Origin: Leisingera sp. ANG-M1
GTDB lineage: Bacteria; Pseudomonadota; Alphaproteobacteria; Rhodobacterales; Rhodobacteraceae
Direction: 5' to 3'
Length of the DNA: 64,000 bases
Assembly (NCBI RefSeq): GCF_000813745.1
Contig: NZ_JWLC01000026.1
Span: 37,775 to 101,774 of the forward strand
Each line of letters starts with the position of its first letter. Position 1 is the first letter of the stretch. A program made the translations under genes and the position numbers. This document shows positions 5,989 through 36,156 of this stretch, piece by piece. The notes below the pieces were generated by a model. It saw only the letters and a list, made by a program, of their open reading frames with translations. It made no database searches and had not been told where the DNA came from.

Positions 5989-5989
5989 C

Positions 5990-13946: not shown

Positions 13947-14777
13947 ATGACCCAACGATCCTACTACGCACCTGAAGGCGGGCTGCCGCCGCAGACGCAG
14001 CTGCTGACTGACCGCGCAATGTTCACCGAGGCCTATGCGGTGATCCCCAAGGGCACGATGAGCGATATCGTGGCCAGTCTTTTGCCGTTCTGGGACGGCG
14101 CGCGTTTCTGGGTGCTGTCGCGGCCCCTGTCTGGTTTTGCTGAAACCTTTTCCCAGTATATCGCTGAGGTGCAGCCGGGTGGCGGCAGCGACCGTCCGGA
14201 AACCGAGCCAGGTGTAGAGGCCGTGCTGTTTGTGGTGCAGGGCGCCATGACGCTGACCATCGACGGAACCGAGCATGAAATGGAGGAGGGTGGCTATGCC
14301 TTCCTGCCGCCCCAAGCCGTCTGGAGCCTGCGCAACAACGGCGATGCGCCTGTGCGTTTCCATTGGATCCGCAAGGCGTATCAGGCGGTTGCGGGGCTGG
14401 AGGCGCCGGAAGCCTTTGTCACCAGCGACAAACATGTCGACCCGACGCCGATGCCGGGAACCGAGGGCAAATGGGCAACCACGCGGTTCGTGGATCCGAA
14501 CGATCTGCGCCACGACATGCATGTGACGATTGTCACCTTTGAGCCGGGCGCGGTGATCCCCTTTGCCGAGACCCATGTGATGGAACACGGGCTTTATGTG
14601 CTGGAGGGCAAGGCCGTTTACCGGCTGAACCAGGATTGGGTTGAAGTTGAGGCCGGCGACTACATGTGGCTGCGCGCCTTCTGCCCGCAAGCTTGCTATG
14701 CAGGCGGGCCGGGCAAGTTCCGCTATCTGCTGTACAAAGATGTGAACCGCCACATGCCGCTGGCGCCGCTGCGCTGA
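13947..14777 (+). CDS. allE: (S)-ureidoglycine aminohydrolase
   Basis: A 276-residue two-cupin enzyme that releases ammonia from (S)-ureidoglycine to give (S)-ureidoglycolate. The first cupin spans about 60-125 (EAVLFVVQGAMTLTIDG) and the second about 185-265, with metal ligands in PFAETHVMEHGLYVLEG. I chose the ATG at 13947 (MTQRSYYAP), preceded by AGGAAAGG; the ORF could extend 33 nt upstream to an ATG at 13914. It is transcribed alone after modC, convergent with bhcR. Its product is the substrate of AllA at 22462. Confidence 0.9.
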   Translation: MTQRSYYAPEGGLPPQTQLLTDRAMFTEAYAVIPKGTMSDIVASLLPFWDGARFWVLSRPLSGFAETFSQYIAEVQPGGGSDRPETEPGVEAVLFVVQGAMTLTIDGTEHEMEEGGYAFLPPQAVWSLRNNGDAPVRFHWIRKAYQAVAGLEAPEAFVTSDKHVDPTPMPGTEGKWATTRFVDPNDLRHDMHVTIVTFEPGAVIPFAETHVMEHGLYVLEGKAVYRLNQDWVEVEAGDYMWLRAFCPQACYAGGPGKFRYLLYKDVNRHMPLAPLR

Positions 14778-14786
14778 AGGCAGGCG

Positions 14787-14819
14787 CAGCGCCCAGCCCT
14801 GATATGTGCCCGGGCGCTG
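14787..14819. terminator. possible terminator between convergent allE and bhcR
   Basis: Eight-bp arms 14787-14794 (CAGCGCCC) and 14812-14819 pair around a 17-nt loop in the 51-nt gap between two convergent genes. There is no T tract on either side, so the call is weak. Confidence 0.3.
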
Positions 14820-14828
14820 TCCGGCTTG

Positions 14829-15662
14829 TCAGCCGGGCGGGGTCTCATCTGCCGCCGGAGCGCCCAGGCCATACGAAAGCTTCTGCGCGGCGTCCTTGAC
14901 CAGGGCGCCGATGCCGCTGATGCCGCCATCGGGCATCCGGGCTGTGGGGCCGGAGATGGAAATCCCGGCCAGCACCTCGCCCTGCATGCCAAAGACCGGC
15001 GCCGCGACGCAGCGCATGCCCGGCGCTTTTTCCTCATCATCAAAGGACCAGCCGCGGCTGCGGATCTGCGCCAGATCGGCGCGCAGCGCGTCGGGTGAAG
15101 TCAGGGTTTTAGCGGTGAACTGCTCCAGCGTGCGGCCGCGCAGGAAGCGGGTGAGCTGGTCCTCCTCGAAACAGCTGAGCAGCGCCTTGCCGATTCCTGA
15201 TGCATGCATCGGCGAGGTGGTTCCGGGCGGGAAGAAGGCGCGGATCGATTCATGCGTCTCCACCTGGCTTACAAACATCACATCGCCGCCGCGTTCGATG
15301 CCGAGATTGGAGGTCTCGCCGGTGGCCTCCATCAGCTCGCGCATCACCGGTCTTGCCCGCTCAATCACGCTGGAGCGGCGCAGGAAGGCAGAGCCAAGGC
15401 GGAACGCCATGGCGCCGATGTGCCAGGTCTGGCTTTGCGGCTCTATCTCGACGATCTGGCGTGCCTCCAGGGTGGACAGCACCCGGTACATAGTGGCTGC
15501 CGACTGATCGAGCGAAGCCGACAGTTCCGTCAGGGTCATACCGTTGGCGCCGGCCAGTGCGTCCAGCACATCCAGCGCCCGGTCAAGTGATTGAATGGTG
15601 GCTGGCTGGCTGGCGGAATCAAAGCTTTTGGGGCGGCCTTTGCGGCGCGGCGGCTGGGGCAT
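14829..15662 (-). CDS. bhcR: IclR-family regulator of the beta-hydroxyaspartate cycle
   Basis: A 277-residue IclR protein: a winged helix-turn-helix at about 20-80 (QSLDRALDVLDALAGANGMTL..SAATMYRVLSTLE) and an effector domain at about 95-265 with GIGKALLSCF and GMRCVAAPVFG motifs. It is divergent from bhcABCD, the arrangement described in Paracoccus denitrificans, where BhcR binds the bhc promoter and glyoxylate weakens binding. The role here follows from family and context. Confidence 0.9.
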   Translation of the reverse strand: MPQPPRRKGRPKSFDSASQPATIQSLDRALDVLDALAGANGMTLTELSASLDQSAATMYRVLSTLEARQIVEIEPQSQTWHIGAMAFRLGSAFLRRSSVIERARPVMRELMEATGETSNLGIERGGDVMFVSQVETHESIRAFFPPGTTSPMHASGIGKALLSCFEEDQLTRFLRGRTLEQFTAKTLTSPDALRADLAQIRSRGWSFDDEEKAPGMRCVAAPVFGMQGEVLAGISISGPTARMPDGGISGIGALVKDAAQKLSYGLGAPAADETPPG

Positions 15663-15860
15663 TTTCAGGCCTTCCCTGGCAATTCAAGCAGCAGCTTATG
15701 GATAATTATGAAAATCACTTCTGTACAGTGAAAAAACTAAAGCTGTTGAAATTATGAGAATTTTCCTCTCAATTCCAGTTTTTGAAACCTTTTTTCAAAA
15801 AAATTCACCTGCGGGCAGCTTCCCTTTACTGTGAAGGAAATCGCCACAGGAGGGCACGAA
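15663..15860. promoter_or_regulatory. bhcR/bhcA divergent promoter region with palindrome
   Basis: A 198-bp A/T-rich gap in otherwise GC-rich DNA. At 15779-15801 there is a perfect inverted repeat (TTTTTGAAA, 5-nt spacer, TTTCAAAAA), about 60 bp before the bhcA ATG. A smaller palindrome CTGTACAG lies at 15721-15728. The first is the best candidate for a BhcR operator. AGGAGGG at 15848-15854 is the bhcA ribosome binding site. Confidence 0.55.
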
Positions 15861-17051
15861 ATGAGCTTTCAAAATCCGGTTTTCATCCCCGGTCCGACCA
15901 ATATGCCCGAAGCGCTGCGCAAGGCCGTGGACATGCCGACGCTGGATCACCGCTCGCCGCTGTTCGGTCAAATCCTGCACCCGGCGCTGGCCGGGGTGAA
16001 GAAGGTTCTGAAAAGCGAGAACGCCGAGATTTTTGTCTTCCCGTCGACCGGAACCGGCGGCTGGGAAACCGCGATCACCAACACGCTGAGCGCCGGCGAC
16101 AAGGTTCTGGCCGCGCGCAACGGCATGTTCAGCCACCGCTGGATCGACATGTGCCAGCGCCACGGGTTGGAGGTTCAGGTTGTTGAGACCCCTTGGGGCG
16201 AAGGCCTGCCTGCGGACCGCTACGAGGAAATCCTGACCGCCGACACCGCGCATGAGATCAAGGTGGTTCTGGCGACCCACAACGAGACTGCCACCGGCGT
16301 GAAGTCCGATATTGCCGCTGTCCGCCGTGTGCTGGATGCGGCCGGCCACCCGGCGCTGCTGTTTGTTGATGGCGTGTCCTCCATCGCTTCGATGGATTTC
16401 CGCATGGATGAGTGGGGCGTCGATATTGCCGTCACCGGCTCGCAGAAGGGCTTCATGCTGCCGCCGGGACTGGCCATCGTCGGCTTCTCGCCCAAGGCGA
16501 TGCAGGCGGTGAAAACCGCGTCCCTGCCGCGCACCTTCTTTGATATCAAGGACATGGCGCTTGGCTATTCCAACAGCGCTTATCCCTACACCCCCTCTGT
16601 CGGCCTGCTGAACGGGTTGAACATGGCTTGTGGTATGCTGTTGGAGGAAGGGCTGGAAAACGTTTTTGCCCGCCACCACCGGATTGCCGAAGGCGTACGT
16701 TCCGCGGTCCGGGCTTGGGGCCTGGAACTCTGTGCCGTCTCGCCGGAAGTCTACTCGGACAGCGTCAGCGCGATCCGCACGCCGGACGGCTTTGATGCCA
16801 ACAAATTCGTGAGCCTGGCGGCCGAGAAATACGGTGTCGCCTTTGGCACCGGTCTGGGCGAGGTCGCAGGCAAGGTGTTCCGCATCGGCCACCTGGGCAG
16901 CCTCACCGATGTGATGGCGCTGTCCGGCATCGCGACCGCCGAAATGGTAATGGCCGACCTTGGGCTGAACATCCCGCTGGGCTCCGGCGTGGCGGCTGCG
17001 CAGGACTACTACCGCGGCAATACCGCAGCCAGCACCAAGGCTGCCGCCTGA
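15861..17051 (+). CDS. bhcA: aspartate-glyoxylate aminotransferase BhcA
   Basis: A 396-residue fold-type I PLP enzyme of the serine-glyoxylate aminotransferase family. It moves the amino group of aspartate to glyoxylate, giving glycine and oxaloacetate, the first step of the beta-hydroxyaspartate cycle. Visible marks are the N-terminal FIPGPTNMPEALR, the loop FPSTGTGGWE, FVDGVSSIAS and the PLP lysine K196 in GSQKGFMLPPG. I start at 15861 because AGGAGGG lies 6 nt before; the 10 residues upstream are in the leader. It overlaps the ATG at 17051 of the bhcB frame. Confidence 0.95.
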   Translation: MSFQNPVFIPGPTNMPEALRKAVDMPTLDHRSPLFGQILHPALAGVKKVLKSENAEIFVFPSTGTGGWETAITNTLSAGDKVLAARNGMFSHRWIDMCQRHGLEVQVVETPWGEGLPADRYEEILTADTAHEIKVVLATHNETATGVKSDIAAVRRVLDAAGHPALLFVDGVSSIASMDFRMDEWGVDIAVTGSQKGFMLPPGLAIVGFSPKAMQAVKTASLPRTFFDIKDMALGYSNSAYPYTPSVGLLNGLNMACGMLLEEGLENVFARHHRIAEGVRSAVRAWGLELCAVSPEVYSDSVSAIRTPDGFDANKFVSLAAEKYGVAFGTGLGEVAGKVFRIGHLGSLTDVMALSGIATAEMVMADLGLNIPLGSGVAAAQDYYRGNTAASTKAAA

Positions 17052-17065
17052 TGAAGGATAACGCG

Positions 17066-18019
17066 ATGTATATCCCGACCTATGAGGACATGCTGGCTGC
17101 GCATGAGCGCATCCAGCCGCATATCCGCCGTACGCCGGTGCGCAGCTCGGCTTATCTGAATGAGCTGACCGGCGCCGAATTGTTCTTCAAATGCGAGAAC
17201 TTCCAGGAGCCGGGCGCCTTCAAGGTGCGCGGCGCCACCAACGCGGTGTTCGGGCTGGATGATGCGCAGGCCGCCAAGGGAGTGGCGACGCATTCCTCTG
17301 GCAACCATGCCTCCTGCCTGTCTTATGCGGCGATGCTGCGCGGCATTCCCTGCAACGTGGTGATGCCGCGGACGGCTCCGCAGGCCAAGAAAGACACCGT
17401 GCGCCGTTATGGCGGTAAGATCACCGAGTGCGAGCCCTCGACCAGTTCGCGTGAGGAGACCTTTGCCAAGGTGCAGGCCGAGACCGGCGGCGATTTCGTG
17501 CACCCCTACAATGACCACCGGGTCATCGCGGGGCAGGGCACTTGCGCCAAGGAGTTCGTGGAGCAGACCGATGGCCTGGACATGGTTGTGGCCCCTATCG
17601 GCGGCGGCGGCATGATTTCGGGTACCTGCCTGACGCTGTCGACGCTGGCACCGGAAACCCAGGTGATTGCGGCAGAGCCGGAGCAGGCCGATGACGCCTA
17701 CCGCAGCTTCAAGGCGGGTTACATCATCGCCGATGATGCGCCCAAGACCATCGCCGACGGGCTGCTGGTGCCGCTGAAGGAGCTGACCTGGCACTTCGTC
17801 AGCAACCACGTCAGCGGGATCTACACTGCGTCCGATGCGGAGATCATCGAGGCGATGAAGCTGATCTGGAAGCATCTGCGCATTGTAATGGAACCGTCTT
17901 CGGCGGTGCCGCTCGCCACCATTCTGAAAAACAAAGACGCCTTCGCGGGCAAACGCGTGGGCCTGATCGTCACCGGCGGCAATGTCGACCTCGACAAGCT
18001 GCCCTGGATGAACAGCTGA
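17066..18019 (+). CDS. bhcB: beta-hydroxyaspartate dehydratase BhcB
   Basis: A 317-residue fold-type II PLP enzyme of the serine/threonine dehydratase family. It dehydrates beta-hydroxyaspartate to iminosuccinate. The PLP lysine is K53 in PGAFKVRGA, the substrate loop is SSGNHASCLS and the phosphate-binding loop GGGGMISG. The ATG at 17066 (MYIPTYEDM) has AAGGA 7 nt upstream; the ATG at 17051 overlapping the bhcA stop is the alternative start (5 residues longer). It lacks the C-terminal regulatory domain of biosynthetic IlvA, as expected. Confidence 0.95.
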   Translation: MYIPTYEDMLAAHERIQPHIRRTPVRSSAYLNELTGAELFFKCENFQEPGAFKVRGATNAVFGLDDAQAAKGVATHSSGNHASCLSYAAMLRGIPCNVVMPRTAPQAKKDTVRRYGGKITECEPSTSSREETFAKVQAETGGDFVHPYNDHRVIAGQGTCAKEFVEQTDGLDMVVAPIGGGGMISGTCLTLSTLAPETQVIAAEPEQADDAYRSFKAGYIIADDAPKTIADGLLVPLKELTWHFVSNHVSGIYTASDAEIIEAMKLIWKHLRIVMEPSSAVPLATILKNKDAFAGKRVGLIVTGGNVDLDKLPWMNS

Positions 18020-18036
18020 TTTTGGGAGTTAAACTC

Positions 18037-19200
18037 ATGAACGTGCAGACAAATTTCGAAGAGCTTGAAGTTGGCTATGACATCCCGGCGGTTCCGGGCA
18101 TGGCCGAGGGCGATATCCAGACCCCGGCGCTGGTGCTGGACCTGGACGCGCTGGAGCGCAACATCAAGAAGATGGGCGACTATGCCAAGGCGCATGGCAT
18201 GCGCCACCGGGTGCATGGCAAGATGCACAAGTCGGTGGATGTGGCCAAGCTGCAGGAAACCCTGGGCGGCGCGGTTGGCGTCTGCTGCCAGAAGGTGTCC
18301 GAGGCCGAGGTCTTTGCCCGCGGCGGCATCAAGGACGTGCTGGTTTCCAACCAGGTCCGCGACCCGCAGAAGATCGACCGTCTGGCCCGCCTGCCCAAAC
18401 TCGGCGCCCGCACCATCGTCTGCGTCGATGACATCGACAATGTGGCCGACCTGTCGGCGGCGGCGCAGAAGCATGGCACCGAAATCGAGGTCTTTGTCGA
18501 GATCGACTGCGGCGCCGGCCGTTGCGGTGTGACCACCACTCAGGACGTTGTCGCGATCGCCAAAAGCGTCGATGCAGCCGAGGGGCTGAAGTTCTCGGGC
18601 ATCCAGGCGTATCAGGGGGCGATGCAGCACCTCGATACCTATGAGGCGCGCAAGGAGAAGCTCGATATCGCCATCGAAATGGTCGAGAACGCGGTGCAGG
18701 GGCTGAAGGCGGTTGGACTGGAACCGGAACTGGTTTCGGGCGGCGGAACCGGCTCCTACTACTTCGAGAGCAACTCTGGCGTTTTCAACGAACTGCAGTG
18801 CGGGTCCTACGCCTTCATGGACGCCGATTACGGGCGTATTCTTGACAAGGACGGCAACCGCATTGACCAGGGCGAGTGGGAGAATGCCTTCTTCCTGCTG
18901 ACCCAGGTGATGAGCCACGCCAAAAGTGACAAGGCCATCGTTGACGCGGGCCTCAAGGCCCAGTCGGTGGACAGCGGCTTGCCCTTCATCTTCGGCCGCG
19001 ACGATGTGGAGTATGTCAAATGCTCGGATGAGCACGGCGTGGTCGCCGACCCCGAGGGAGCACTTAAAGTGGGTGAGAAGCTGCGGCTGGTGCCTGGCCA
19101 CTGCGACCCGACCGCCAACGTGCATGACTGGTACGTCGGTGTGCGCGGCGGCAAAGTTGAAACCGTCTGGCCTGTCTCGGCCCGCGGCAAAGCATACTAA
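18037..19200 (+). CDS. bhcC: beta-hydroxyaspartate aldolase BhcC
   Basis: A 387-residue D-threonine aldolase-like (fold-type III, PLP) enzyme that condenses glycine and glyoxylate to beta-hydroxyaspartate. The PLP-lysine region reads HGKMHKS (K62 or K65, by analogy with the KTHK motif of the family). EIDCGAGRCG, SGGGTGSYYF and the C-terminal metal-binding pair in LVPGHCDPTAN are also present. I use the ATG at 18037, with GGGAG upstream; a TTG 15 nt earlier would include the ribosome binding site in the protein. It follows bhcB by 17 nt. Confidence 0.95.
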   Translation: MNVQTNFEELEVGYDIPAVPGMAEGDIQTPALVLDLDALERNIKKMGDYAKAHGMRHRVHGKMHKSVDVAKLQETLGGAVGVCCQKVSEAEVFARGGIKDVLVSNQVRDPQKIDRLARLPKLGARTIVCVDDIDNVADLSAAAQKHGTEIEVFVEIDCGAGRCGVTTTQDVVAIAKSVDAAEGLKFSGIQAYQGAMQHLDTYEARKEKLDIAIEMVENAVQGLKAVGLEPELVSGGGTGSYYFESNSGVFNELQCGSYAFMDADYGRILDKDGNRIDQGEWENAFFLLTQVMSHAKSDKAIVDAGLKAQSVDSGLPFIFGRDDVEYVKCSDEHGVVADPEGALKVGEKLRLVPGHCDPTANVHDWYVGVRGGKVETVWPVSARGKAY

Positions 19201-19271: not shown

Positions 19272-20237
19272 ATGTATATCGTTCCGGAGAAGGAAATCGC
19301 GGGCCTGATGACCCGCGAGGCCGCGTTTGATGCGGTCGAGAAGGTCTTTGCCGCCATGGCATCGGGCGATGCCTATAACTTCCCTGTAGTGCGTGAAGCG
19401 ATTGGCCATGAGGATGCGCTTTATGGCTTCAAAGGCGGTTTTGACCGTGCCGGCCTCACCCTAGGCCTGAAAGCCGGCGGCTACTGGCCGAACAACCTGG
19501 AAAAGCGCGGACTGATCAATCACCAGTCCACCGTTTTCCTGTTCGACCCGGACACCGGCAAGGCCAAGGCGATGGTGGGCGGCAACCTGCTGACTGCGCT
19601 GCGCACTGCCGCGGCGTCCTCGGTCTCGATCAAGCATCTGGCCCGCAAGGATGCCAAGGTGATCGGCATGATCGGCGCGGGCCATCAGGCCAAGTTCCAG
19701 CTGCGCGCGGCATTGGAGCAGCGTCAGTTTGAAAAAGTCATCGGCTGGAACCTGCACCCGGATATGCTGCCGAACCTGCAAGAAGTTGCGGATGAAGCGG
19801 GCCTGCCCTTTGAAGCAGTGGAGCTGGACGGCATGCGCGAGGCGGATGTGATCATCTCGATCACCTCGTCCTTCGACGCGATCCTGAACACAGCTCAGGT
19901 CAGCCCGGGCACCCACATCGCCTGCATGGGCACCGATACCAAGGGCAAGCAGGAGGTGGACCCGCAGCTGCTGGTGGCGGCAGACGTGTTCACTGATGAG
20001 GTGGCGCAGTCGATCTCCATCGGCGAGACGCAGCACGCGGTGGCGCAGGGGCTGATCCAGGAAGCCGACGTGGCCCAGATCGGCGCGGTGATCAACGGCA
20101 CCAACCCCGGGCGCACCTCGGGCGATCAAATCACGCTGTTCGACGGCACCGGTGTCGGCCTGCAGGATCTGGCGGTGGCGGCCTCGGTCGTTGATCTGGC
20201 GGTGGAGCAAGGCATCGCCATCGAGGTCGACTTCTAA
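19272..20237 (+). CDS. bhcD: iminosuccinate reductase BhcD
   Basis: A 321-residue member of the ornithine cyclodeaminase/mu-crystallin family. In the cycle it reduces iminosuccinate to aspartate with NADH, regenerating the amino donor for BhcA. The Rossmann loop is IGMIGAGHQAKFQLRA (about 131-146). The N-terminal substrate part has the LKAGGYWPNN region and a final catalytic section lies around GTNPGRTSGDQITLFDGTG. It is the last gene of the bhc operon, followed by a strong terminator. Confidence 0.94.
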   Translation: MYIVPEKEIAGLMTREAAFDAVEKVFAAMASGDAYNFPVVREAIGHEDALYGFKGGFDRAGLTLGLKAGGYWPNNLEKRGLINHQSTVFLFDPDTGKAKAMVGGNLLTALRTAAASSVSIKHLARKDAKVIGMIGAGHQAKFQLRAALEQRQFEKVIGWNLHPDMLPNLQEVADEAGLPFEAVELDGMREADVIISITSSFDAILNTAQVSPGTHIACMGTDTKGKQEVDPQLLVAADVFTDEVAQSISIGETQHAVAQGLIQEADVAQIGAVINGTNPGRTSGDQITLFDGTGVGLQDLAVAASVVDLAVEQGIAIEVDF

Positions 20238-20333: not shown

Positions 20334-20846
20334 ATGTTTCTGGGCTTGAGCCTGCTGGTGGTTGGCGTGGTGCTGTGCCTGAATGGCATCTGGCTGTTTG
20401 GCCGGATCGAGGACCGGGAAATCTGTTTGATCAACTTCGCCGCGGCGGCCGTCTTCTTTGCCATCGTCCTGCTGATCGCCCTTGCCGCGCAGCAGCCGTC
20501 CGATCTGCTGGACGCCGGCATGACGCTGCTGTTCGGCACCACCTATCTGTGGGTCGGTTATAACCGGCTGGTTCCCGCCAACGGTGCAGGACTCGGCTGG
20601 TTCAGCGGCTTTGTTGCCTTAACTGCGGCGCCTATGGTGCTACGGGTGCTGGCGCAGGCAGACGGGCTGTTCGATGTCTGGCTGGCGGCCTGCTGGGCAG
20701 CCTGGGCCGGGCTGTGGTTTCTCTATTTCCTGAACCTTGCCCTCAACCGCGGCAGCACCCGGGTGACCGCCGTTGCCACTCTTTTGTGCGGGATCTTCAC
20801 CGGCTGGCTACCGGGTCTCGCCGTCCTGCACGGGCTGGCGGGCTGA
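20334..20846 (+). CDS. AmiS/UreI-family urea or amide channel
   Basis: A 170-residue integral membrane protein with six predicted helices, the size and pattern of the AmiS/UreI family (start MFLGLSLLVVGVVLCLNGIWL; conserved GTTYLWVGYNRL near 62-73). Members let urea or short amides cross the inner membrane. Purine breakdown through AllA releases urea, so urea movement is the likely job here. It has its own ribosome binding site (GGAGGAT) and sits between two terminators. No urease genes are in the window. Confidence 0.83.
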   Translation: MFLGLSLLVVGVVLCLNGIWLFGRIEDREICLINFAAAAVFFAIVLLIALAAQQPSDLLDAGMTLLFGTTYLWVGYNRLVPANGAGLGWFSGFVALTAAPMVLRVLAQADGLFDVWLAACWAAWAGLWFLYFLNLALNRGSTRVTAVATLLCGIFTGWLPGLAVLHGLAG

Positions 20847-22385: not shown

Positions 22386-22461
22386 GAGGTCGTTTCTCCT
22401 GTCGGTCATGGGGATCTCGCCGCTTCTTATTGTTTTGTTGAGCGGCTTCGGGGTGTTGCGG

Positions 22462-25890: not shown

Positions 25891-25909
25891 TTTTACCTAA
25901 TACATGAAA
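25891..25909. promoter_or_regulatory. imperfect copy of the TTTCA-N9-TGAAA site before puuD
   Basis: TTTTA, 9 nt, TGAAA: one base from the palindrome at 24417 and 28351, at identical spacing, 49 bp before the puuD ATG and in the gap shared with the LysR gene. Confidence 0.35.
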
Positions 25910-25957
25910 ATAGCGGCATGCTCTAGTGTCCTTGCCAAAGCTTATGAGGAGAGAACA

Positions 25958-27339: not shown

Positions 27340-28257
27340 CTACTCCCCGGCCTCGCTGCGCCGGAAGGCGGCAAGCCCGTGTTTCACCGCGTAGTCCACA
27401 AACAGGCGGACCTTCGGATCCTGCAGTTTCCGGTGCGGGTAGAGGCAGCCGAAAATGGTCGGCTCCGGCGGGGTGTCCGGCAGCACCTTAACCAGCGCGC
27501 CGGAGCGCAGATGGGCCGCCACATCAAACCACGGCTTGTTGACGATGCCGCGCCCGTCCAGCGCCCAATTGGTCAGCACGTCGCTGTCGTCCGCATCGTA
27601 TTTGCCCGAAACCTCCAGCTTGCGCGGGCCCTCGGGCGTTTCCAGTGTCCAGTAGTATTCGGGCGAGCGCGGGTAGCGCAGCAGCAGGCAGTTGTGGCCG
27701 CTCAACAGATCCTCCGGAACCTGCGGGGTGCCGTGGCGTTCCAGATACTCCGGCGCTGCGCACAGAACCCGGGTGCAATCGGCGATCTTGCGCATCTTCA
27801 GGGTGGAGTCATGCGGGGTTCCGATAAAGAACGCCACATCCAGCCCGTCCGCCAGGATATCCACCTTGCGGTCCGACATCCGCATGCGGATTTCGGTGGC
27901 CGGATAGTCCTCGACAAAGGCGGGCACCAGTGGCGCAATGATGCGGCGGCCGACGCCCAGCGGCGCAGTCACCCGGATCACCCCGCGCGGCGCCTCGGAG
28001 AACTGAGAGACCACCGCCTCGGCGTCCTCAATCGATTCGAGCACCTTCTTAGCCTCGGCATAAAACAGCTGTCCTACCTCGGTCGGGGTCAGTGATCTCG
28101 TGGTGCGGTTGAACAAACGCACGCCTAGATGCTTTTCAAGCTCCTTGATCCGCTTGCTGGCCACCGCCGGCGTCAGCCGTAAATCGCGCCCGCCAGAGGT
28201 GATGCTGCCCAGTTCAACGACTCGGGTAAAAACGCGCAGGGATTCCAGATAAGACAT
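27340..28257 (-). CDS. LysR-family regulator, divergent from xdhABC
   Basis: A 305-residue LysR protein with helix-turn-helix at about 3-62 (TRVVELGSITSGGRDLRLTPAVASKRIKELEKHL) and an effector domain that is the paralogue of the protein at 24944. The ATG at 28257 (MSYLESLRVF) has AAAGGA 9 nt upstream; an in-frame ATG 42 nt earlier is less likely. It is divergent from xdhA across a 207-bp region holding a perfect palindrome. Likely regulator of xanthine dehydrogenase; effector not known. Confidence 0.9.
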   Translation of the reverse strand: MSYLESLRVFTRVVELGSITSGGRDLRLTPAVASKRIKELEKHLGVRLFNRTTRSLTPTEVGQLFYAEAKKVLESIEDAEAVVSQFSEAPRGVIRVTAPLGVGRRIIAPLVPAFVEDYPATEIRMRMSDRKVDILADGLDVAFFIGTPHDSTLKMRKIADCTRVLCAAPEYLERHGTPQVPEDLLSGHNCLLLRYPRSPEYYWTLETPEGPRKLEVSGKYDADDSDVLTNWALDGRGIVNKPWFDVAAHLRSGALVKVLPDTPPEPTIFGCLYPHRKLQDPKVRLFVDYAVKHGLAAFRRSEAGE

Positions 28258-28350
28258 GTTTAACAGTCCTTTGCGGGGCGCAATCGGCGCTTGGGCCATG
28301 GATCATACGGCGCAATTGCGGCCGGTTCCGGCACCTATTAGCCTAACCAT

Positions 28351-28369: not shown

Positions 28370-28464
28370 GCCTTTCTCGATTGCAGCCGTTAACCGTGGC
28401 AGTCAGACAAGGTAAAAATGAAGCAACAGAACTAGAAGCTGTCCAGCGACTACTTGGAGGCCAG

Positions 28465-29928
28465 ATGGAACATCAAAACGACATTCGCTTTCTGCTGAAC
28501 GGGCGGGAGCTATCGGTCAAGGACGTGAAGGCGACTACGACCCTGTTGGATTTCCTGCGGCTGGAGCAGCGCCTGACCGGCACCAAGGAAGGTTGCGCCG
28601 AGGGCGACTGCGGCGCCTGCACTGTGCTGGTGGGCCGGCTGCATAATGGCGCCCTGCGCTATGAGGCGGTGAACGCCTGTATCCGCTTCCTGGCGTCTCT
28701 GAACGGCTGCCATGTGGTGACGGTGGAGCATCTGTCCGGCCCGAACGGACGGCTGCACCCGGTACAGCAGGCGATGGTCGAATACCACGGCAGCCAGTGC
28801 GGCTTCTGCACCCCCGGCTTTGTGATGTCGCTTTACGCGCTGTGGATGGAAAACCCGCAGCCGAGTGAGGCCGAGGTGGAAATCGCCGTGCAGGGCAACC
28901 TCTGCCGCTGCACCGGCTATGAGCCGATCGTGAAAGCCGCGCTGGCGGTTAACCAATACGGCACCCCGGCCAATGATTACCTGACCACCGAGCGTGAGAG
29001 CCTGACCGCCAAGCTGCAGGCAATCCAGCCGCAGGCCCGGGTGGTGACCGGTCCAGAAGACGACCGCGCCATCCTGCCGCTGGATGCGGCGGATCTGGCA
29101 GAGGTGCTGGCGGTGAACCCCAAGGCAACCATTGTTGCGGGCTCCACCGATGTGGGCCTGTGGGTGACCAAGTTCATGAAGCCGATCTCTCCGGTGGTGT
29201 TTGTTGCCCATCTGGAGGAGCTGAAGGCGGTTGAGCTGACGGATGAGGCGCTTATCATTGGTGCCGGCGTCACCTATACCGAAAGCGAAGAAGCCATCCG
29301 CGATGCCTTCCCGCACCTTAGCGACTACTGGGACCGCATCGCCGGCTGGCAAGTGCGCAACATGGGCACCATCGGCGGCAATATCGCCAACGGCTCCCCC
29401 ATCGGGGACACCCCGCCGGTGCTGATTTCTCTGAGCGCTGAAGTGACGCTGCAGAAAAAGGGCGGTTCGCGCACCCTGCCGCTCGAGGATTTCTTTATCG
29501 ACTACGGCAAGCAGGACCGGGAACCGGGGGACTTTGTTGCCTCGATCCGCATTCCGCGGGCTGCAGCGGGCCAGATTGATGCCGCCTACAAGATCTCCAA
29601 GCGCCGGGATGAGGATATCTCCTCGGTTGCTGCTGGGGTCAGCGTGACCGTGAAGGACGGCGTGATCACCTCTGCGCGGATCGCATTCGGCGGCATGGCG
29701 GCAACGCCCAAACGCGCCGCGGGCGCCGAGGCGGCTCTGGTGGGCCAGCCCTGGGGCGAGGCTGCGTTTGACGCAGCAGCGGAAGCGGTGAAGCAGGACT
29801 TCACTCCGCTCAGCGACTGGCGCGCCTCTGCCGAGTACCGCGCGCTGTCGGCCAGCAACCTGCTGCGCCGCTTCTATCTGGAAAACGATGCGGGAACCGC
29901 CGGTGCCGTCCGGTTGGCCGTCGCCTGA
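28465..29928 (+). CDS. xdhA: xanthine dehydrogenase small subunit XdhA
   Basis: A 487-residue subunit with two [2Fe-2S] clusters and FAD. Cluster ligands are in GCAEGDCGACTVL, QCGFCTPGFVMS and GNLCRCTGYEP (first 160 residues). The FAD domain has IVAGSTDVGLWV and GGNIANGSPIGDTPP. It passes electrons from the molybdenum site of XdhB to NAD. The ATG at 28465 has GGAGG 5 nt upstream; the longer frame from 28381 would place the start 28 residues earlier without a site. xdhB follows after 12 nt. Confidence 0.95.
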   Translation: MEHQNDIRFLLNGRELSVKDVKATTTLLDFLRLEQRLTGTKEGCAEGDCGACTVLVGRLHNGALRYEAVNACIRFLASLNGCHVVTVEHLSGPNGRLHPVQQAMVEYHGSQCGFCTPGFVMSLYALWMENPQPSEAEVEIAVQGNLCRCTGYEPIVKAALAVNQYGTPANDYLTTERESLTAKLQAIQPQARVVTGPEDDRAILPLDAADLAEVLAVNPKATIVAGSTDVGLWVTKFMKPISPVVFVAHLEELKAVELTDEALIIGAGVTYTESEEAIRDAFPHLSDYWDRIAGWQVRNMGTIGGNIANGSPIGDTPPVLISLSAEVTLQKKGGSRTLPLEDFFIDYGKQDREPGDFVASIRIPRAAAGQIDAAYKISKRRDEDISSVAAGVSVTVKDGVITSARIAFGGMAATPKRAAGAEAALVGQPWGEAAFDAAAEAVKQDFTPLSDWRASAEYRALSASNLLRRFYLENDAGTAGAVRLAVA

Positions 29929-29940: not shown

Positions 29941-32259
29941 ATGAAAGACCATCAGACCATCAGCGGCGCCGTGCATCATGACCGCCAGCACGACAGTGCG
30001 ATCAAGCATGTGACCGGCCGCGCCGAATACACCGACGATATCGCCGAACCCTATGGCACGCTGCACGCCTACCTCGGTGCCTCCACCGTGGCGCATGCCA
30101 ATATCAAAGGCATCGACCTCACCGCTGTCCGCAACGCCCCCGGCGTGGTGGATGTGCTGACCGCTGCGGACGTTCCTGGCGTCAATGATATCAGCCCCAC
30201 CGGCAAGCATGATGAGCCGGTCTTCCCGACGGAGAAGGTGGAGTTCCACGGCCAGCCGATGTTTGCGGTGATTGCCGAAACCCGCGACGCGGCCCGCCGT
30301 GCCGCCGAACTAGCAAAGGTAGATTACGAGTTGCTGCCGCACGCGCTGGATCCGGTTCAGGCGCAGCTGGCCGGGTATCCCATGGTCACCGATCCGCTGA
30401 AGCTGGAGCGCGGCGATGTGGAGGCGGGCCGCAAAGATGCGCCCCACCGCATCCAGGCGCAGATGACCGTTGGCGGCCAGGACCACATGTATCTGGAGGG
30501 CCACATCGCCTTTGCCATTCCCGGCGAAGACGAGGATGTGACCGTGCATTGCTCCACCCAGCACCCCAGCGAGGCGCAGCATATGGTGGCGCATGTTCTG
30601 GGCGTTGCGAACAATGCGGTGACCGTCAACGTGCGCCGGATGGGCGGCGGCTTTGGCGGCAAGGAAAGCCAGATGAACCTGTTCTGCGCGGTGGCTGCCA
30701 TTGCCGCGAAGAAGCACAACCGGCCTGTAAAGATCCGCCCGGACCGCGATCAGGACATGACCGCCACCGGCAAGCGCCATGACTTTGTGATCGACTATGA
30801 CGTGGCCTTTGACGATGAGGGGCGTATCCAGGCGGTCGAGGGCGGCTTTGCCGCGCGCTGCGGCTATTCCTCGGACCTGTCCGGTCCGGTCACCGACCGG
30901 GCGCTGTTCCATGCGGATAACGCCTATTTCTACCCGAATGTGCTGCTGAAAAGCCGTCCGATGAAGACCAACACCGTCTCCAACACCGCCTTCCGCGGCT
31001 TTGGCGGCCCGCAGGGGGTGGTTGCGGCGGAACGGATGATCGAAGAGATCGCCTATGCGCTCGGCAAGGATCCCTTGGATGTTCGTAAGGCCAATTTCTA
31101 TGGCGAAGAAGGCCGCGACCTGACGCCTTACCATCAGAAGGTGGAGGACAATATCCTCGACCGGCTGATCACGGAGCTGGAGGAAAACGCTGAGTACCGC
31201 AAGCGCCGCGAAGAGATCATCGCCTTCAACAAGGACTCGAAGATCATCAAGAAGGGCATTGCGCTCACCCCGGTGAAATTCGGCATCTCCTTCACCGCGA
31301 CCTGGTACAATCAGGCGGGTTCGCTGATCCATGTTTACAATGACGGCTCGATCCACTTGAATCACGGCGGCACCGAGATGGGGCAGGGCCTCAACACCAA
31401 GGTGGCGCAAGTGGTGGCCGATGCCTTCCAGGTGGATTTCGAGCGCATCAAGATCACCAAGACGACGACCGAGAAAGTGCCGAACACTTCGGCCACTGCG
31501 GCCTCGTCCGGGTCGGACCTCAACGGCATGGCGGCACTGGATGCGGCGGAGCAGATCATTGCCCGGCTGACCAAATTCGCGGCGGAGAAATACGAGGTCT
31601 CAGAGGCCGAAGTCGAATTCCTGCCCAACCGTGTGCGCATCGGCGGTGAGGTGATTTCTTTCGACACGCTGGTGAAAGAGGCCTATATGGCCCGCGTTCA
31701 CCTGTCGGCGGCGGGTTTTTATAAGACGCCGGAGATCCACTGGGACCGCGCGGCGGGCAAGGGGCAGCCGTTTTTCTACTACGCCTATGGCGCGTCCTGC
31801 TCCGAGGTGTCTGTCGACACGCTGACCGGCGAATACCGGGTCGAGCGCACCGACATCCTGCACGACGTGGGCCGCTCGCTGAACCCAATCCTGGACAAGG
31901 GCCAGGTAGAGGGCGCGTTCATCCAGGGCATGGGCTGGCTCACCACGGAAGAACTGTGGTGGGACGGCGAGGGCCGGTTGCTCACCCACGCGCCCTCAAC
32001 CTACAAGATCCCGCTGGCCTCTGACCGGCCGCGCATCTTCAACACGCAGCTGGCCGAATGGTCGGTGAACAAGAAGCGCACCATCAAACGGTCCAAGGCC
32101 GTGGGCGAGCCGCCCTTCATGCTGGGCATCTCGGTGTTCGAGGCGCTGTCGATGGCTGTCGCCAGCACTGCGGACTACAAACACTGCCCGCGCCTGGATG
32201 CGCCCGCCACGCCGGAGCGCGTGCTGATGGCGATCGAAACCCTCAAAGATCGGGGCTGA
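29941..32259 (+). CDS. xdhB: xanthine dehydrogenase large (molybdopterin) subunit XdhB
   Basis: A 772-residue molybdenum hydroxylase subunit that converts hypoxanthine to xanthine and xanthine to urate. Cofactor-contact motifs are RRMGGGFGGKES (about 230-240), NTAFRGFGGPQGV (about 348-360) and GGTEMGQGLNTKV. The catalytic base is Glu723 in AVGEPPFML. Substrate-side arginine lies in the AFRGFG region. Length and order match the bacterial XdhAB type. Confidence 0.96.
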   Translation: MKDHQTISGAVHHDRQHDSAIKHVTGRAEYTDDIAEPYGTLHAYLGASTVAHANIKGIDLTAVRNAPGVVDVLTAADVPGVNDISPTGKHDEPVFPTEKVEFHGQPMFAVIAETRDAARRAAELAKVDYELLPHALDPVQAQLAGYPMVTDPLKLERGDVEAGRKDAPHRIQAQMTVGGQDHMYLEGHIAFAIPGEDEDVTVHCSTQHPSEAQHMVAHVLGVANNAVTVNVRRMGGGFGGKESQMNLFCAVAAIAAKKHNRPVKIRPDRDQDMTATGKRHDFVIDYDVAFDDEGRIQAVEGGFAARCGYSSDLSGPVTDRALFHADNAYFYPNVLLKSRPMKTNTVSNTAFRGFGGPQGVVAAERMIEEIAYALGKDPLDVRKANFYGEEGRDLTPYHQKVEDNILDRLITELEENAEYRKRREEIIAFNKDSKIIKKGIALTPVKFGISFTATWYNQAGSLIHVYNDGSIHLNHGGTEMGQGLNTKVAQVVADAFQVDFERIKITKTTTEKVPNTSATAASSGSDLNGMAALDAAEQIIARLTKFAAEKYEVSEAEVEFLPNRVRIGGEVISFDTLVKEAYMARVHLSAAGFYKTPEIHWDRAAGKGQPFFYYAYGASCSEVSVDTLTGEYRVERTDILHDVGRSLNPILDKGQVEGAFIQGMGWLTTEELWWDGEGRLLTHAPSTYKIPLASDRPRIFNTQLAEWSVNKKRTIKRSKAVGEPPFMLGISVFEALSMAVASTADYKHCPRLDAPATPERVLMAIETLKDRG

Positions 32260-32262: not shown

Positions 32263-33156
32263 ATGGCCCGCCGCCCTTCCCTTCAGGATTTTCTAGCCAG
32301 CCACGTCAACGTGGTGCAGGTCGCGTTGACCCGCGTTCGCGGTTCCTCCCCGCGCGAGGCCGGCACCTGCATGTTTGTGGCGGCGGAAGGCCTGTGGGGG
32401 ACCATCGGCGGCGGCCAGCTGGAATATATTGCCATCGACCATGCGCGGCGGATGCTGAAGCAGCATGTGATCAGCGACACGCTGGACGTGCCGCTGGGGC
32501 CGGAGATCGGCCAGTGCTGCGGCGGAAGGGTGGAAATGTCGCTGGCGCAGATGCGCCAGGCTGACCGCGAAGACGCCCTTGCCCGCCAGCAGGCCGAGGA
32601 ACAGGCGCTGCCGCATGTCTATGTGATGGGCGCGGGCCATGTGGGCCGGGCGCTGGCGGATCTGTTCCAGCATATGCCGGTGCGCTGCATCCTGATCGAC
32701 CAGCGCGCCGAAGAGCTGGCCTTGTGCCAAGCGGATGTGGAAATCCGCCAAAGCGCCATTCCTGAGATCGACATCGCCACCGCACCTGCGGGCAGCGCCT
32801 TTGTTGTTCTCACCCATGATCATGCGCTCGACTTCCTGCTTGCCTCCGCTGCCCTGCAGCGCGGCGATGCGGGCTATGTCGGGCTGATCGGATCGGCCAC
32901 CAAGCGGGAGAAGTTCCGCCGCTGGTGCCGGGACCATTGCGACGGTCTTGCAAGCGACCGTCTCATCTGCCCCATCGGGGCAAGCGGTAGCCGCGACAAG
33001 CGGCCCAGCGTCATCGCCGCCTTCGTGGCGGCGGAAGTGATCGCTGATTTGACCTCTGAAACTGCCGCGTCCGCTCCATCACGGAGCACTGACCTGCCCC
33101 AAAGGGGCAAGCAACCGGACGCAGAGGGAGACACGGCTGGAGCATTCAGCCGTTAA
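32263..33156 (+). CDS. xdhC: XdhC molybdenum cofactor insertion protein
   Basis: A 297-residue chaperone that binds molybdenum cofactor and helps deliver its sulfurated form to XdhB. The N-terminal CoxI-like part has TRVRGSSPREAGTCMFV and GTIGGGQLE. The C-terminal Rossmann part has VMGAGHVGRAL, VLTHDHALD and GLIGSATKREKFRR. After about residue 262 a Ser/Pro-rich tail of some 35 residues lies beyond the conserved domain, and its DNA contains two small palindromes. It starts 3 nt after the xdhB stop. Confidence 0.93.
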   Translation: MARRPSLQDFLASHVNVVQVALTRVRGSSPREAGTCMFVAAEGLWGTIGGGQLEYIAIDHARRMLKQHVISDTLDVPLGPEIGQCCGGRVEMSLAQMRQADREDALARQQAEEQALPHVYVMGAGHVGRALADLFQHMPVRCILIDQRAEELALCQADVEIRQSAIPEIDIATAPAGSAFVVLTHDHALDFLLASAALQRGDAGYVGLIGSATKREKFRRWCRDHCDGLASDRLICPIGASGSRDKRPSVIAAFVAAEVIADLTSETAASAPSRSTDLPQRGKQPDAEGDTAGAFSR

Positions 33157-33188
33157 GGACTGCGTCCTCTTGACAGGAGGAGGCCGCC

Positions 33189-34784
33189 ATGACCACAGGG
33201 CGGAGCTATACGTACAAACTGTTCGCGCGGAATGACTTCAGTGCATTCTGGGCGCTGTTCACCGACAACCTGATCAACCTGATCGTGCTTTCGGGCATCT
33301 GTCAGTTTGTCTTCAACATGCCTGCCGACATCGTGTTCGGCCGCATCGTGCCCGGCGCCGCAGTGGCGATCCTGGCCGGTATCGCAGTCTACACCTGGAT
33401 GGCAAAGCACATCGCCGAGAAAGAGGAGCGCGACGTGACCGCGCTGCCCTATGGCATCTCGACGCCCGTCATGTTCGTCTATCTGTTCGGCGTGATCGGG
33501 CCGATCTACTGGTCCACCAATGACGCGATGCTGGCCTGGCAGGTGGGTATCGGCGCGGGCTTCATGGGCGGCATCGTTGCTGCCCTGGGCGCCATCGTCG
33601 GGCCGTGGCTGAAGCGCGTGACCCCGCGTGCGGGCATGCTCGGCACCCTCTGCGGCATTGCGCTGGTGTTCATTGGCACCGTGCCGCTTGCGACGATCTT
33701 TGAGGATCCGTTCATCGGCTTTGCTTCGATGATCATCATCCTTTGGGGCCTGGTCGGCCGCCACCGGCTGCCGTTCAACATCCCGGCAGGTCTGCTCGCG
33801 CTGATCGTCGGTACTGTTGTGGCGCTTGGCATGGGCAAGGCCTCGGTCTCGTTCGAAGGCGTGGGTGTCTACCTGCCGATCCCGTATTTCGGCGACCTGA
33901 TTGCGGGCATCCAGCATCTGTTCGCCAACCCGGAGCTGTTCCTGGTTCTGGTGCCGGTGCAGATCTACAACTTCATCGAAACCATGAACAACGTCGAAAG
34001 CGCCGAAGCGGCGGGCGACCATTACCCGGTCGGCGTCTGCCAGGTGACCGACGGTGTTGGAACCATGATCGGTGCGGTCTTCGGCTCGCCGTTCCCGACC
34101 ACCGCCTACATCGGCCACCCGGCCTATAAGCGGATGGGCGCACGTTCGGGCTATATCATCGGCGTTGGCATTGTGATCCCCTTTGCCGCCTTCTTTGGTC
34201 TCCTGGCGTTCCTCAACAACCTGATCCCCGTGGCTGCTGCCGCGCCGGTGCTGGTGTTTGTGGCGCTGAGCCTGGTGACCAATACCGCGCATTCGGTGAA
34301 AACCGATCACATCGCCGCGGTGACCATCGCAATGATGCCGCATGTCTCTGCCTTCCTGGTGGTGAAATGGGGCGCGCTGGCCGGCGCCTTGGGCGCATTG
34401 GGCGCCACCGGCATGGCCCAGCTGGGCGATCCGGAGCTGACTGCGGCGCTGCTGCAGCAGGGGGCGCACTATGAAGGCCATCTGGCGCTCAGCCAGGGTG
34501 CGATCCTGACCGGCCTGATCTGGGGCGCCATCGTGGCCAGCGTGATCGACGGCGACTTCCGCAACGCGGGCGGCTTTGCCCTGGCGGCGGCGGGCATGGC
34601 GCTGGTGGGCGTGATCCACTCGGCCAGCCTGCATTGGCCGGAGTTCAGCGGCATTGCCCTGGGTTACCTGATCGCTGCAGCCTTCCTATTCATCTACCCG
34701 ATCTTCCACAAGGCGGATGAGGGTGAGGAAGCGGAAGAGGACGGCGCCAAGCCCCATGTGCCGCATCTGCCGGCAGGCGAATAA
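33189..34784 (+). CDS. putative purine permease of the xdh cluster
   Basis: A 531-residue membrane protein with about 12-13 hydrophobic segments. It resembles the NCS2/AzgA-like permeases often placed between xdhC and guaD (FTDNLINLIVLSGICQF, ALPYGISTPVMFVYLFGVIGP, IYNFIETMNNVESAEAAGD, SPFPTTAYIGHPAYKRMGARSG). The classic NAT signature seen in the 20913 permease is not present, so its substrate may differ, for example guanine, adenine or xanthine. The C-terminus is acidic and cytoplasmic. AGGAGGAGG precedes the ATG. Confidence 0.82.
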   Translation: MTTGRSYTYKLFARNDFSAFWALFTDNLINLIVLSGICQFVFNMPADIVFGRIVPGAAVAILAGIAVYTWMAKHIAEKEERDVTALPYGISTPVMFVYLFGVIGPIYWSTNDAMLAWQVGIGAGFMGGIVAALGAIVGPWLKRVTPRAGMLGTLCGIALVFIGTVPLATIFEDPFIGFASMIIILWGLVGRHRLPFNIPAGLLALIVGTVVALGMGKASVSFEGVGVYLPIPYFGDLIAGIQHLFANPELFLVLVPVQIYNFIETMNNVESAEAAGDHYPVGVCQVTDGVGTMIGAVFGSPFPTTAYIGHPAYKRMGARSGYIIGVGIVIPFAAFFGLLAFLNNLIPVAAAAPVLVFVALSLVTNTAHSVKTDHIAAVTIAMMPHVSAFLVVKWGALAGALGALGATGMAQLGDPELTAALLQQGAHYEGHLALSQGAILTGLIWGAIVASVIDGDFRNAGGFALAAAGMALVGVIHSASLHWPEFSGIALGYLIAAAFLFIYPIFHKADEGEEAEEDGAKPHVPHLPAGE

Positions 34785-34808
34785 CCTCAAACTCACTCAC
34801 GGAACAGG

Positions 34809-34834
34809 GCAGGGGGCGGGCCACCGCCCCCTGC
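34809..34834 (+). other. strong hairpin between the permease and guaD, no T tract
   Basis: Perfect 11-bp arms (34809-34819 and 34824-34834) with loop GCCA. No run of T follows, so it is more likely an RNA stabiliser or processing site than a terminator. The guaD ribosome binding site (AAGGA) follows. Confidence 0.6.
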
Positions 34835-34857
34835 CAGTCAACAAGGACATTAAAGAC

Positions 34858-36156
34858 ATGACATCGAAACAGACGCTGCTGCGCGGGCGGGTGCTTTCCT
34901 TCACCGCCGAGCCGCAAGGCGCTGACGACACCAGCGCCTATGAGTTCATCGAAGACGGCGCGCTGCTGGTGGCGGACGGCATGATCCTGGCCAAGGGCAG
35001 CTACGGCGACGTTTCCGCCCAAGCAAACGGCGCCAAGGTGATCGACCACCGCCCGCATATCCTGATGGCCGGTTTCATCGACACCCACCTGCATTTCCCG
35101 CAGGTGCAGGTGATCGCCTCCTGGGGCTCGCAGCTTTTGGAGTGGCTGAACAATTACACTTTCCCCGAGGAGGTGCGTTTTGCCGACGCGGGCCACAGCG
35201 CCGAGATGGCCGGGCATTTCTTCGACCTGCTGACCAGCCATGGCACCACCACGGCCGTCGCCTATTGCTCGGTCCACAAAACCTCCGCCGAGGCCTATTT
35301 CAACGAGGCCGCGCGCCGCAACATGCGGATGATCGGCGGCAAGGTGCTGATGGACCGCAACGCGCCCGAGGGCCTGCTGGATACGCCGGTCAGCGGCTAT
35401 GACGACACCAAGGAGCTGATTGCCAAGTATCACTGCCAAGGCCGCGGCATGTATGCAATCACCCCGCGCTTCGCCATTACCTCCACCCCCGACCAGATGG
35501 AGATGGCCGGCGCCTTGGTGAAGGAGCATCCGGACTGCTACGTCCAGACCCATCTGTCGGAAAACCACGACGAGATCGCCTTTACCGCTGAGCTCTACCC
35601 GCAGGCGCGGGACTATCTGGATGTCTACCAATCCTACGGGCTGCTGACGGAAAAGATGCTGCTGGGCCACTCGATCCACCTGCAGCCGCGCGAGATCGAT
35701 GCGCTGGCCGAGACCCAGGCCAAGCCAGTGTTCTGCCCGACCTCAAACCTATTCCTGGGCAGCGGGCTGTTTGACGATGCTGGCCTGCGCAGCCGCGGTA
35801 TCACCAACGCGATTGCCACCGACATCGGCGCCGGCACCAGCTATTCGATGCTGCAGACCCTGAACGAGGGCTATAAGGTCCTGCAGCTGCAGAACCAGAA
35901 GCTGCACCCATTACGCGCCTTCCACTGGATCACCCGCGGCAATGCGGTGGCGCTGGGGCTGGAGGACAAGATCGGTACGCTGGAGGCCGGGACTGAAGCC
36001 GACATCGTGGTGCTGGATTCCCGCGCCACCCACGCGATGGACCTGCGGATGCAGCGGGCCGAGACGTTGTCGGAGGAACTGTTCGTCCTGCAAACCCTGG
36101 GTGACGACCGCTCCATCGCGCAGACTTACGCGGCGGGTCAGCCGATGAAGGCTTAA
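34858..36156 (+). CDS. guaD: guanine deaminase
   Basis: A 432-residue zinc amidohydrolase that turns guanine into xanthine. The metal site starts with GFIDTHLHFPQ (about residue 73-83); the family motif of guanine deaminases, FPEEVRFAD and CSVHKTSAEAYF, follows, then QTHLSENHDEI and LLGHSIHL, and the metal Asp in IATDIGAGTSYSML. It delivers xanthine to XdhAB. It is probably co-transcribed with xdhABC and the permease. Confidence 0.95.
   Translation: MTSKQTLLRGRVLSFTAEPQGADDTSAYEFIEDGALLVADGMILAKGSYGDVSAQANGAKVIDHRPHILMAGFIDTHLHFPQVQVIASWGSQLLEWLNNYTFPEEVRFADAGHSAEMAGHFFDLLTSHGTTTAVAYCSVHKTSAEAYFNEAARRNMRMIGGKVLMDRNAPEGLLDTPVSGYDDTKELIAKYHCQGRGMYAITPRFAITSTPDQMEMAGALVKEHPDCYVQTHLSENHDEIAFTAELYPQARDYLDVYQSYGLLTEKMLLGHSIHLQPREIDALAETQAKPVFCPTSNLFLGSGLFDDAGLRSRGITNAIATDIGAGTSYSMLQTLNEGYKVLQLQNQKLHPLRAFHWITRGNAVALGLEDKIGTLEAGTEADIVVLDSRATHAMDLRMQRAETLSEELFVLQTLGDDRSIAQTYAAGQPMKA

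Follow-up and report, generated by a model that had tools for sequence, protein, structure and literature searches.

Results

Purine and bhc genes in the window

We analysed a stretch of 64,000 nucleotides from Leisingera sp. ANG-M1 (contig NZ_JWLC01000026.1; hereafter the window), in which the genes of the beta-hydroxyaspartate cycle, bhcR and bhcABCD, lie together with a pathway from guanine and xanthine to glyoxylate. Genes were called by NCBIfam and Pfam profile matches, with bit scores set against curated cut-offs, and some names were taken from a syntenic Leisingera plasmid (L241). Every purine and bhc gene that an initial annotation had listed within 22 kb was confirmed, either through a profile match or through the annotated syntenic plasmid, and gene-by-gene reading placed both pathways within 13914-36156. 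The start of the block had, however, been set too late, because modABC (11213..13847, + strand), directly upstream, is part of the same syntenic unit; two LysR regulators inside the block also had to be counted. ModB and ModC of this molybdate ABC transporter scored over cut-off, the solute-binding protein gave a match, and the genes are named modABC in L241; they would supply molybdenum for the molybdenum-dependent xanthine dehydrogenase. The window is colinear with a Leisingera aquaemixtae plasmid from 125 to 36153 (~36 kb, 85-91% identity). Individual genes of the block are already named in RefSeq on the Leisingera plasmid and are known one by one.

The four bhc enzymes are encoded contiguously and co-directionally on the + strand, and all scored over their equivalog cut-offs: bhcA, aspartate-glyoxylate aminotransferase (15831..17051; NF045640, 757 bits, cut-off 650), bhcB, beta-hydroxyaspartate dehydratase (17051..18019; NF045641, 582 bits, cut-off 550), bhcC, 3-hydroxy-D-aspartate aldolase (18022..19200; NF045642, 761 bits, cut-off 690), and bhcD, iminosuccinate reductase (19272..20237; NF045643, 594 bits, cut-off 500). 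The IclR-type regulator gene of the cycle, bhcR (14829..15662, - strand; NF045644, 418.5 bits, cut-off 350), is divergent from bhcA, and between the two lies a candidate BhcR operator, an exact match to the palindrome TGAAA-N5-TTTCA (15783..15797) that is conserved at bhcA.

The purine genes stand on both sides of the bhc genes. To the left is uglyAH (13914..14777, + strand), which the initial annotation had called ureidoglycine aminohydrolase. The product does pass that model (NF008376, 537 bits, cut-off 338), but it is over cut-off too for the bifunctional allantoicase/(S)-ureidoglycine aminohydrolase model (NF040771, 509 bits, cut-off 350), the probable function and the RefSeq name in L241. 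To the right, a probable urea channel of the AmiS/UreI family (20334..20846, + strand; PF02293, 4e-46) is followed by three genes on the - strand: an NCS2 purine permease whose true start is probably inside the open reading frame (20913..22508; TIGR00801 over cut-off, PF00860, and the xanthine permease model TIGR03173 just below, 401 bits against 414), allA for ureidoglycolate lyase, with glyoxylate and urea as products (22462..22953; PF04115, 4.8e-57), and a puuE-uraD fusion for allantoinase and OHCU decarboxylase (22950..24365), which is over cut-off for both TIGR03212 (527 bits, residues 4-300) and TIGR03164 (214 bits, residues 310-469). Next come hiuH for 5-hydroxyisourate hydrolase (24514..24870, + strand; PF00576, 7.7e-36), the first LysR-type regulator (24944..25852, - strand; LysR family models, none shown over its cut-off), divergent from puuD for the membrane urate oxidase (25904..27217, + strand, true start probably slightly later; PF06181, 6e-133), and the second (27340..28299, - strand; PF03466, PF00126), divergent from xdhA. 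The genes that complete the block are all on the + strand: xdhA and xdhB for the small and molybdopterin subunits of xanthine dehydrogenase (28381..29928, TIGR02963, 665 bits, cut-off 467; 29941..32259, TIGR02965, 1326 bits, cut-off 849.5), xdhC for its accessory protein (32263..33156; TIGR02964, 277 bits, cut-off 161.6), a second permease (33189..34784), and guaD for guanine deaminase (34717..36156, true start probably near 34850 by the gene length in L241; TIGR02967, 550 bits, cut-off 375). The second permease had no NCBIfam match at 1e-8 and no Pfam match at 1e-3, and its RefSeq name, xanthine/uracil/vitamin C permease, comes from name and position in L241 only. Of the PuuD-type aerobic pathway for cleavage of the purine ring, the block thus encodes XdhAB(C), urate oxidase, HIU hydrolase, allantoinase, OHCU decarboxylase and ureidoglycolate lyase.

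Recurrence of the pairing in the family

We followed the pairing through the window's family in a sample of 198 genomes, with each genus represented once. BhcC was over cut-off in 84 of the 198 genera; excluding the window's own, this gave 86 bhcC loci in 83 genomes, all of which were examined. A purine gene was counted at 42% identity and 50% coverage, or by bits over 150 for PuuE-UraD. At least two purine genes lay within ~10 kb of bhcC in 30 of the 86 loci (30 of 83 genera), and in 24 of the 66 loci that had 8 kb or more on either side. Loci with a BhcC below cut-off were linked in 2 of 14 cases. As controls we took 40 loci around acetolactate-synthase-like genes, some of them cut by contig ends, from genomes of which 37 had bhcC over cut-off. 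Purine genes were found in only one control locus (Fisher p 3e-5 against 30/86), and this locus overlaps a bhc neighbourhood, with an anchor gene only 13 kb away from that genome's bhcC. The joining thus goes beyond chance, and the comparison of neighbourhoods across the family refuted a linkage confined to this genome: the pairing is real, recurrent and not peculiar to it.

A second set of 80 named loci, biased because they are the best 80 by identity among the matches listed, was linked to purine genes in 42 cases, in genera that include Leisingera, Ruegeria, Roseovarius, Shimia, Paracoccus, Defluviimonas, Nitratireductor, Oricola, Labrenzia and Roseitalea. A looser pass at 38% identity linked 42 of the 80 named loci and 14 of the first 40 genus loci. 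The two sets share genomes (the 1,688,967-base contig behind L091 and L094, for example), and their counts were not summed as independent.

Neighbours were also clustered without bait, using the proteins of one further locus, L001, and of 100 genus loci, 86 with a BhcC over cut-off and 14 with one below it, with overlapping shadow frames set aside and labels given afterwards. In the 86 loci the commonest neighbours after the bhc genes themselves were puuE-uraD (27), allA (26), hiuH (26), a GAPDH paralogue (25), uglyAH (24), puuD (23), xanP (21) and the first LysR regulator (21). The GAPDH paralogue may serve gluconeogenesis from C4 acids; one copy, at L109:11631-12626, is under the GAPDH-I cut-off (334 of 367 bits).

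Layouts and history

Taken together, the linked loci of the two sets number 74 and showed 16 junction signatures, several of which differ solely through the end of the stretch. The commonest, uglyAH-[bhc]-xanP, was seen in 26. We built a quick tree of 117 BhcC-family proteins (100 genus rows, eight of the 80 named loci, eight from L233-L240, and the window's). On it the label "complete bhc with purine neighbours" was weakly clustered (6 of 500 shuffles were as low) and changed 24 times, at least 11 of these changes being forced by starred branches, in a tree where long branches are flagged, contig ends inflate apparent losses, and some "lone" labels (L096, L102 and L132, for example) are contig ends. 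The pairing has therefore been acquired or lost repeatedly, the count making no difference between the two.

Four genomes (G025, G146, G097 and G072) carry a BhcC-like gene after uglyAH inside a purine cluster, with 72%, 64%, 58% and 52% identity, respectively, to the window's BhcC. No bhcA, bhcB or bhcD was found beside it in these four, the rest of the genomes not having been searched; each has a single BhcC match. Such lone-aldolase loci are 3 of the 74 linked loci. The lone aldolases lie in L177, L184, L190 and L233; the stretch L233 stops at a contig end, and bhc genes missing there are not proven absent. In G025 and G146 the lone aldolase has uglyAH on one side and the purine permease on the other, a position that the commonest layout gives to the whole bhc block. 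At 54 positions common to complete-cycle BhcC and five outgroup aldolases, the four proteins keep 209 of 216 cells. They fall outside a 97-row clade (SH-aLRT 95) in which every one of the 92 complete-cycle rows, the window's included, is found, though this placement is unsure and the branches are long. The lone aldolase could carry out a shorter condensation of glyoxylate and glycine that preceded the cycle, could be a remnant of the cycle, or could catalyse a different reaction. That the beta-hydroxyaspartate cycle of the family grew out of purine catabolism is a doubtful proposal.

Plasmids carrying the block

Relatives of BhcC were found on 122 plasmid records, and at least 80% of the block on 17, all from Leisingera. 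The joined pathway thus exists on Leisingera plasmids as one unit of an extrachromosomal replicon. A Pseudosulfitobacter plasmid of 108.6 kb carries the block genes in a different order. The window, on contig C19, is colinear with a Leisingera plasmid over ~36 kb, yet relatives of that plasmid's partition and replication proteins are on contig C8 of the genome and not on C19; on C8, 4276-6812 encodes proteins 98% and 96% identical to the partition-like AAA ATPase and the DnaA-like protein of a 108.9-kb Leisingera plasmid.

Other plasmids hold bhc in other company. On Rhizobium and Methylorubrum plasmids it adjoins glcDEF. On an Aminobacter aminovorans plasmid (L252, NZ_CP015008.1) bhcRABCD lies beside FAD-dependent oxidoreductases and an ABC transporter; the strain is a nitrilotriacetate degrader, and the cluster may have to do with the breakdown of aminopolycarboxylates. 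A Roseovarius plasmid of 30 kb, conjugative by type (L250, NZ_CP020476.1), has bhcB and bhcC at 7933-12338, no annotated bhcA or bhcD, and RidA proteins, an FAD oxidoreductase and a TRAP transporter as neighbours; use of hydroxyaspartate or D-amino acids is possible there. The presence of bhc beside glcDEF or FAD oxidoreductases suggests that it is a cassette docked to whichever pathway makes glyoxylate.

Sources and fates of glyoxylate

AllA was found in 181 of the 198 genera. Glyoxylate carboligase (Gcl) was over cut-off in none of the 198, with lower-scoring relatives in all and a positive Escherichia coli control. The available text of PMC11323563 names two routes for net glyoxylate assimilation, one of them the beta-hydroxyaspartate cycle, and with Gcl over cut-off nowhere, the cycle is the only one of the two evident in the sample. 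The same source names purines and allantoin as glyoxylate sources in one sentence.

In the parts of the literature available, the cycle is described as a route for glycolate (PMC11323563) or ethylene glycol (PMC11166783). We searched for glycolate oxidase, the neighbour that such papers lead one to expect, with the bhc-adjacent glcDEF of the Rhizobium and Methylorubrum plasmids. At 35% identity and 60% coverage, glcDEF stood beside bhc in 0 of 86 genus loci and 0 of 80 named loci; one GlcF match was sub-threshold (32% identity, L107). From the window's genome the same queries did recover glcDEF, at 48-73% identity on contig C66. The proposal that glyoxylate from AllA feeds the cycle is well supported by the recurrent linkage, the result for Gcl and the lack of adjoining glcDEF.

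Allantoate and nitrogen

As a bifunctional enzyme, uglyAH would yield urea, not ammonia, from allantoate. AllC was over cut-off in none of 12 genomes including the window's (sub-cut-off paralogues in 11, E. coli control positive). The allantoicase model PF03561 matched none of the 12, but its controls were silent too, so that it is uninformative.

In the window's genome, estimated to be 99.8% complete, neither a urease alpha subunit nor a urea carboxylase was over cut-off; the biotin-carboxylase part of the latter gave many sub-cut-off matches, up to 552 bits against 1304. Most purine nitrogen should be lost here as urea, and the block probably feeds carbon while urea leaves. Purines had been proposed as a source of carbon as well as nitrogen; the carbon part is supported, and the nitrogen part would hold to a small extent at most in this genome. 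Elsewhere urease is common, being over cut-off in 150 of the 198 genera and in 27 of the 30 linked ones (G087, G079 and G147 had no match; G152 was counted over cut-off from an E-value of 2e-257). On this count we rejected the absence of urease as a general feature of the linkage; that purines serve for carbon alone, with urea released, is proposed for this genome and not for linked loci at large.

The candidate bhc operator

The palindrome TGAAA-N5-TTTCA occurred exactly in 86 of 144 bhcR-bhcA intergenic regions (both overlapping sets), ~48 bases upstream of bhcA, and in none of the composition shuffles of these regions. Of 104 exact matches in L013-L232, 101 lay between bhcR and bhcA or bhcB, three elsewhere and none in control loci. 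The site at 15783..15797 is the sole exact match in the window; we discounted a weak match at 24426, which scored 7.7 bits where the bhc site scored 34.8. In PMC11323563, the legend to one figure points to a potential palindromic site ahead of bhcA. From the available part of that source, glyoxylate acts through BhcR, and BhcR is required for bhc expression in Paracoccus.

A shared operator, or a single BhcR regulon over both halves, was not supported, since no exact match stood at a purine promoter. Weak or different sites are possible there, as 58 of the 144 bhc promoters themselves lack an exact match. Given the purine promoters, the two halves are more likely to be coupled through glyoxylate as inducer than through a common operator.

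Genes flanking the block

To the left of the block and its modABC genes, Pfam matches at 129-11138 identify CheA, CheR, CheB, CheD and a receptor, and synteny identifies CheW; a caspase-domain protein is encoded there too, and all are kept in the Leisingera plasmid. The MCP receptor (7073-9436) has a sub-threshold dCache_1 match (36.9 bits against 45). We considered it as a purine-sensing dCache_1PU receptor and rejected this, as it does not contain the motif Y..R..W(aromatic)..F.D/N, given in the available text of PMC11245519 and spaced here by McpH residue numbers.

Just after guaD, 36153-45527 (~9.4 kb) breaks colinearity with the Leisingera plasmid and contains a uroporphyrinogen-decarboxylase-like gene, a MocR-type regulator, an adenylation-domain protein, an enoyl-CoA hydratase, and DUF5666 and DUF6502 genes. 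Further right, at ~50637-55540, is a phosphonate cluster (phosphonoacetate hydrolase, phosphonoacetaldehyde dehydrogenase and aminoethylphosphonate transaminase, by similarity to annotated plasmids).

Discussion

We consider it probable that the block is a purine-to-C4 catabolic unit, in which purine carbon is taken to glyoxylate and then through the beta-hydroxyaspartate cycle. Purine uptake would be by the two permeases. GuaD, xanthine dehydrogenase (with molybdenum from modABC), PuuD, HIU hydrolase and the PuuE-UraD fusion would then give allantoate by way of urate, and the bifunctional cupin enzyme uglyAH with AllA would convert allantoate through ureidoglycolate to glyoxylate and urea. 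Glyoxylate would serve BhcA and BhcC as substrate and would also be sensed by BhcR, so that BhcABCD would be made when purine carbon arrives, and two glyoxylates would give one C4 acid with zero carbon loss. The purine genes are probably under their own LysR regulators, the halves being joined by a common metabolite instead of a common operator, and urea is probably exported in this genome through the UreI-type channel. A carbon role of the block is strongly suggested; we infer from the sequence how carbon flows, that an allantoicase step takes place, which way urea moves and that purines induce bhc.

Several observations weigh against such a unit. Most bhc loci lack purine neighbours: 56 of the 86 genus loci, some cut by contig ends, have fewer than two purine genes within ~10 kb, and among the loci with 8 kb on both sides 42 of 66 are still unlinked. 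One of the 30 linked loci (L177, in G025) has bhcC without bhcA, bhcB or bhcD. The bhc copy on the Ruegeria pomeroyi megaplasmid has no purine neighbour in the 31-kb stretch examined. The GAPDH paralogue neighbours bhc as often as the purine genes do, in 25 of the 86 genus loci and also in 14 of the 80 named loci. No purine promoter in the loci searched, the window included, has an exact palindrome match. The linked genera mostly possess urease, and with glcDEF elsewhere in this genome, bhc may serve glycolate too.

Some of these points would fit mere co-location, with accessory catabolic genes collecting on plasmids or islands, bhc serving glycolate and the purine genes serving nitrogen. The plasmids of Leisingera and Pseudosulfitobacter that carry the block, the frequent gain and loss of the linkage, the glcDEF of this genome and the urease of 27 of the 30 linked genera are what such an explanation leads one to expect. 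Yet purine genes rank among the commonest bhc neighbours, glcDEF was found beside none of the loci, purine genes turned up at just one of 40 control loci, and this genome has no urease or urea carboxylase over cut-off; we regard co-location alone as unlikely. It is similarly improbable, in our judgement, that bhc mainly clears reactive glyoxylate during the use of purine nitrogen, net carbon gain being secondary. BhcR does respond to glyoxylate (PMC11323563, available text), and 114 of the 198 genera have no BhcC over cut-off though AllA is present in 181, so the full cycle is dispensable for making purine glyoxylate. But a four-enzyme assimilation cycle would be a costly means of detoxification, and with neither urease nor urea carboxylase over cut-off, xanthine or allantoin would give little usable nitrogen here. 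A purine-to-C4 unit stays our preferred reading.

A full-text literature search found no report of the bhc-purine linkage; an earlier report is possible, as the search did not cover the 2019 Nature paper on the cycle (10.1038/s41586-019-1748-4). The linkage is unstated in the available parts of PMC11323563, PMC11698098, PMC13313319, PMC12214560, PMC11166783, PMC10499878 and PMC11245519. In the text available the cycle is presented mainly as a pathway for glycolate (or ethylene glycol), whereas in this family its commonest catabolic genome partner is purine breakdown. If purines feed the cycle, marine purine exudates would be a carbon source used without carbon loss at the glyoxylate step, and genomes without urease would turn purines into a source of urea for their neighbours.

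Among known systems, bhcRABCD of Paracoccus denitrificans is alike in the four enzymes, the IclR-type regulator, the divergent bhcR and bhcA and a potential palindromic site before bhcA (PMC11323563, available text); there the cycle is described as a glycolate and ethylene glycol route, whereas the bhc genes of the window are embedded in purine genes. SAR11 is alike in drawing carbon from purines or allantoin by way of glyoxylate and in giving off urea if it has no urease (PMC11698098, available text), but hydroxyaspartate is not a term in the main text of that paper. The Rhizobium and Methylorubrum plasmids likewise join a bhc cassette to a glyoxylate-producing module, theirs being glycolate oxidase (glcDEF) and not purine breakdown.

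In E. coli, the all-gcl operon sets ureide genes together with the gcl module. Ureide breakdown and a glyoxylate-assimilating module stand under one glyoxylate-sensing IclR-family regulator there, AllR (PMC11323563, available text). E. coli, however, uses Gcl and the glycerate pathway, with one CO2 lost per two glyoxylates (same source), whereas the window's genome has no Gcl over cut-off. Here two known pathways are paired, and the pair would work like the allantoin-Gcl system of E. coli, with a carbon-conserving module in its place.

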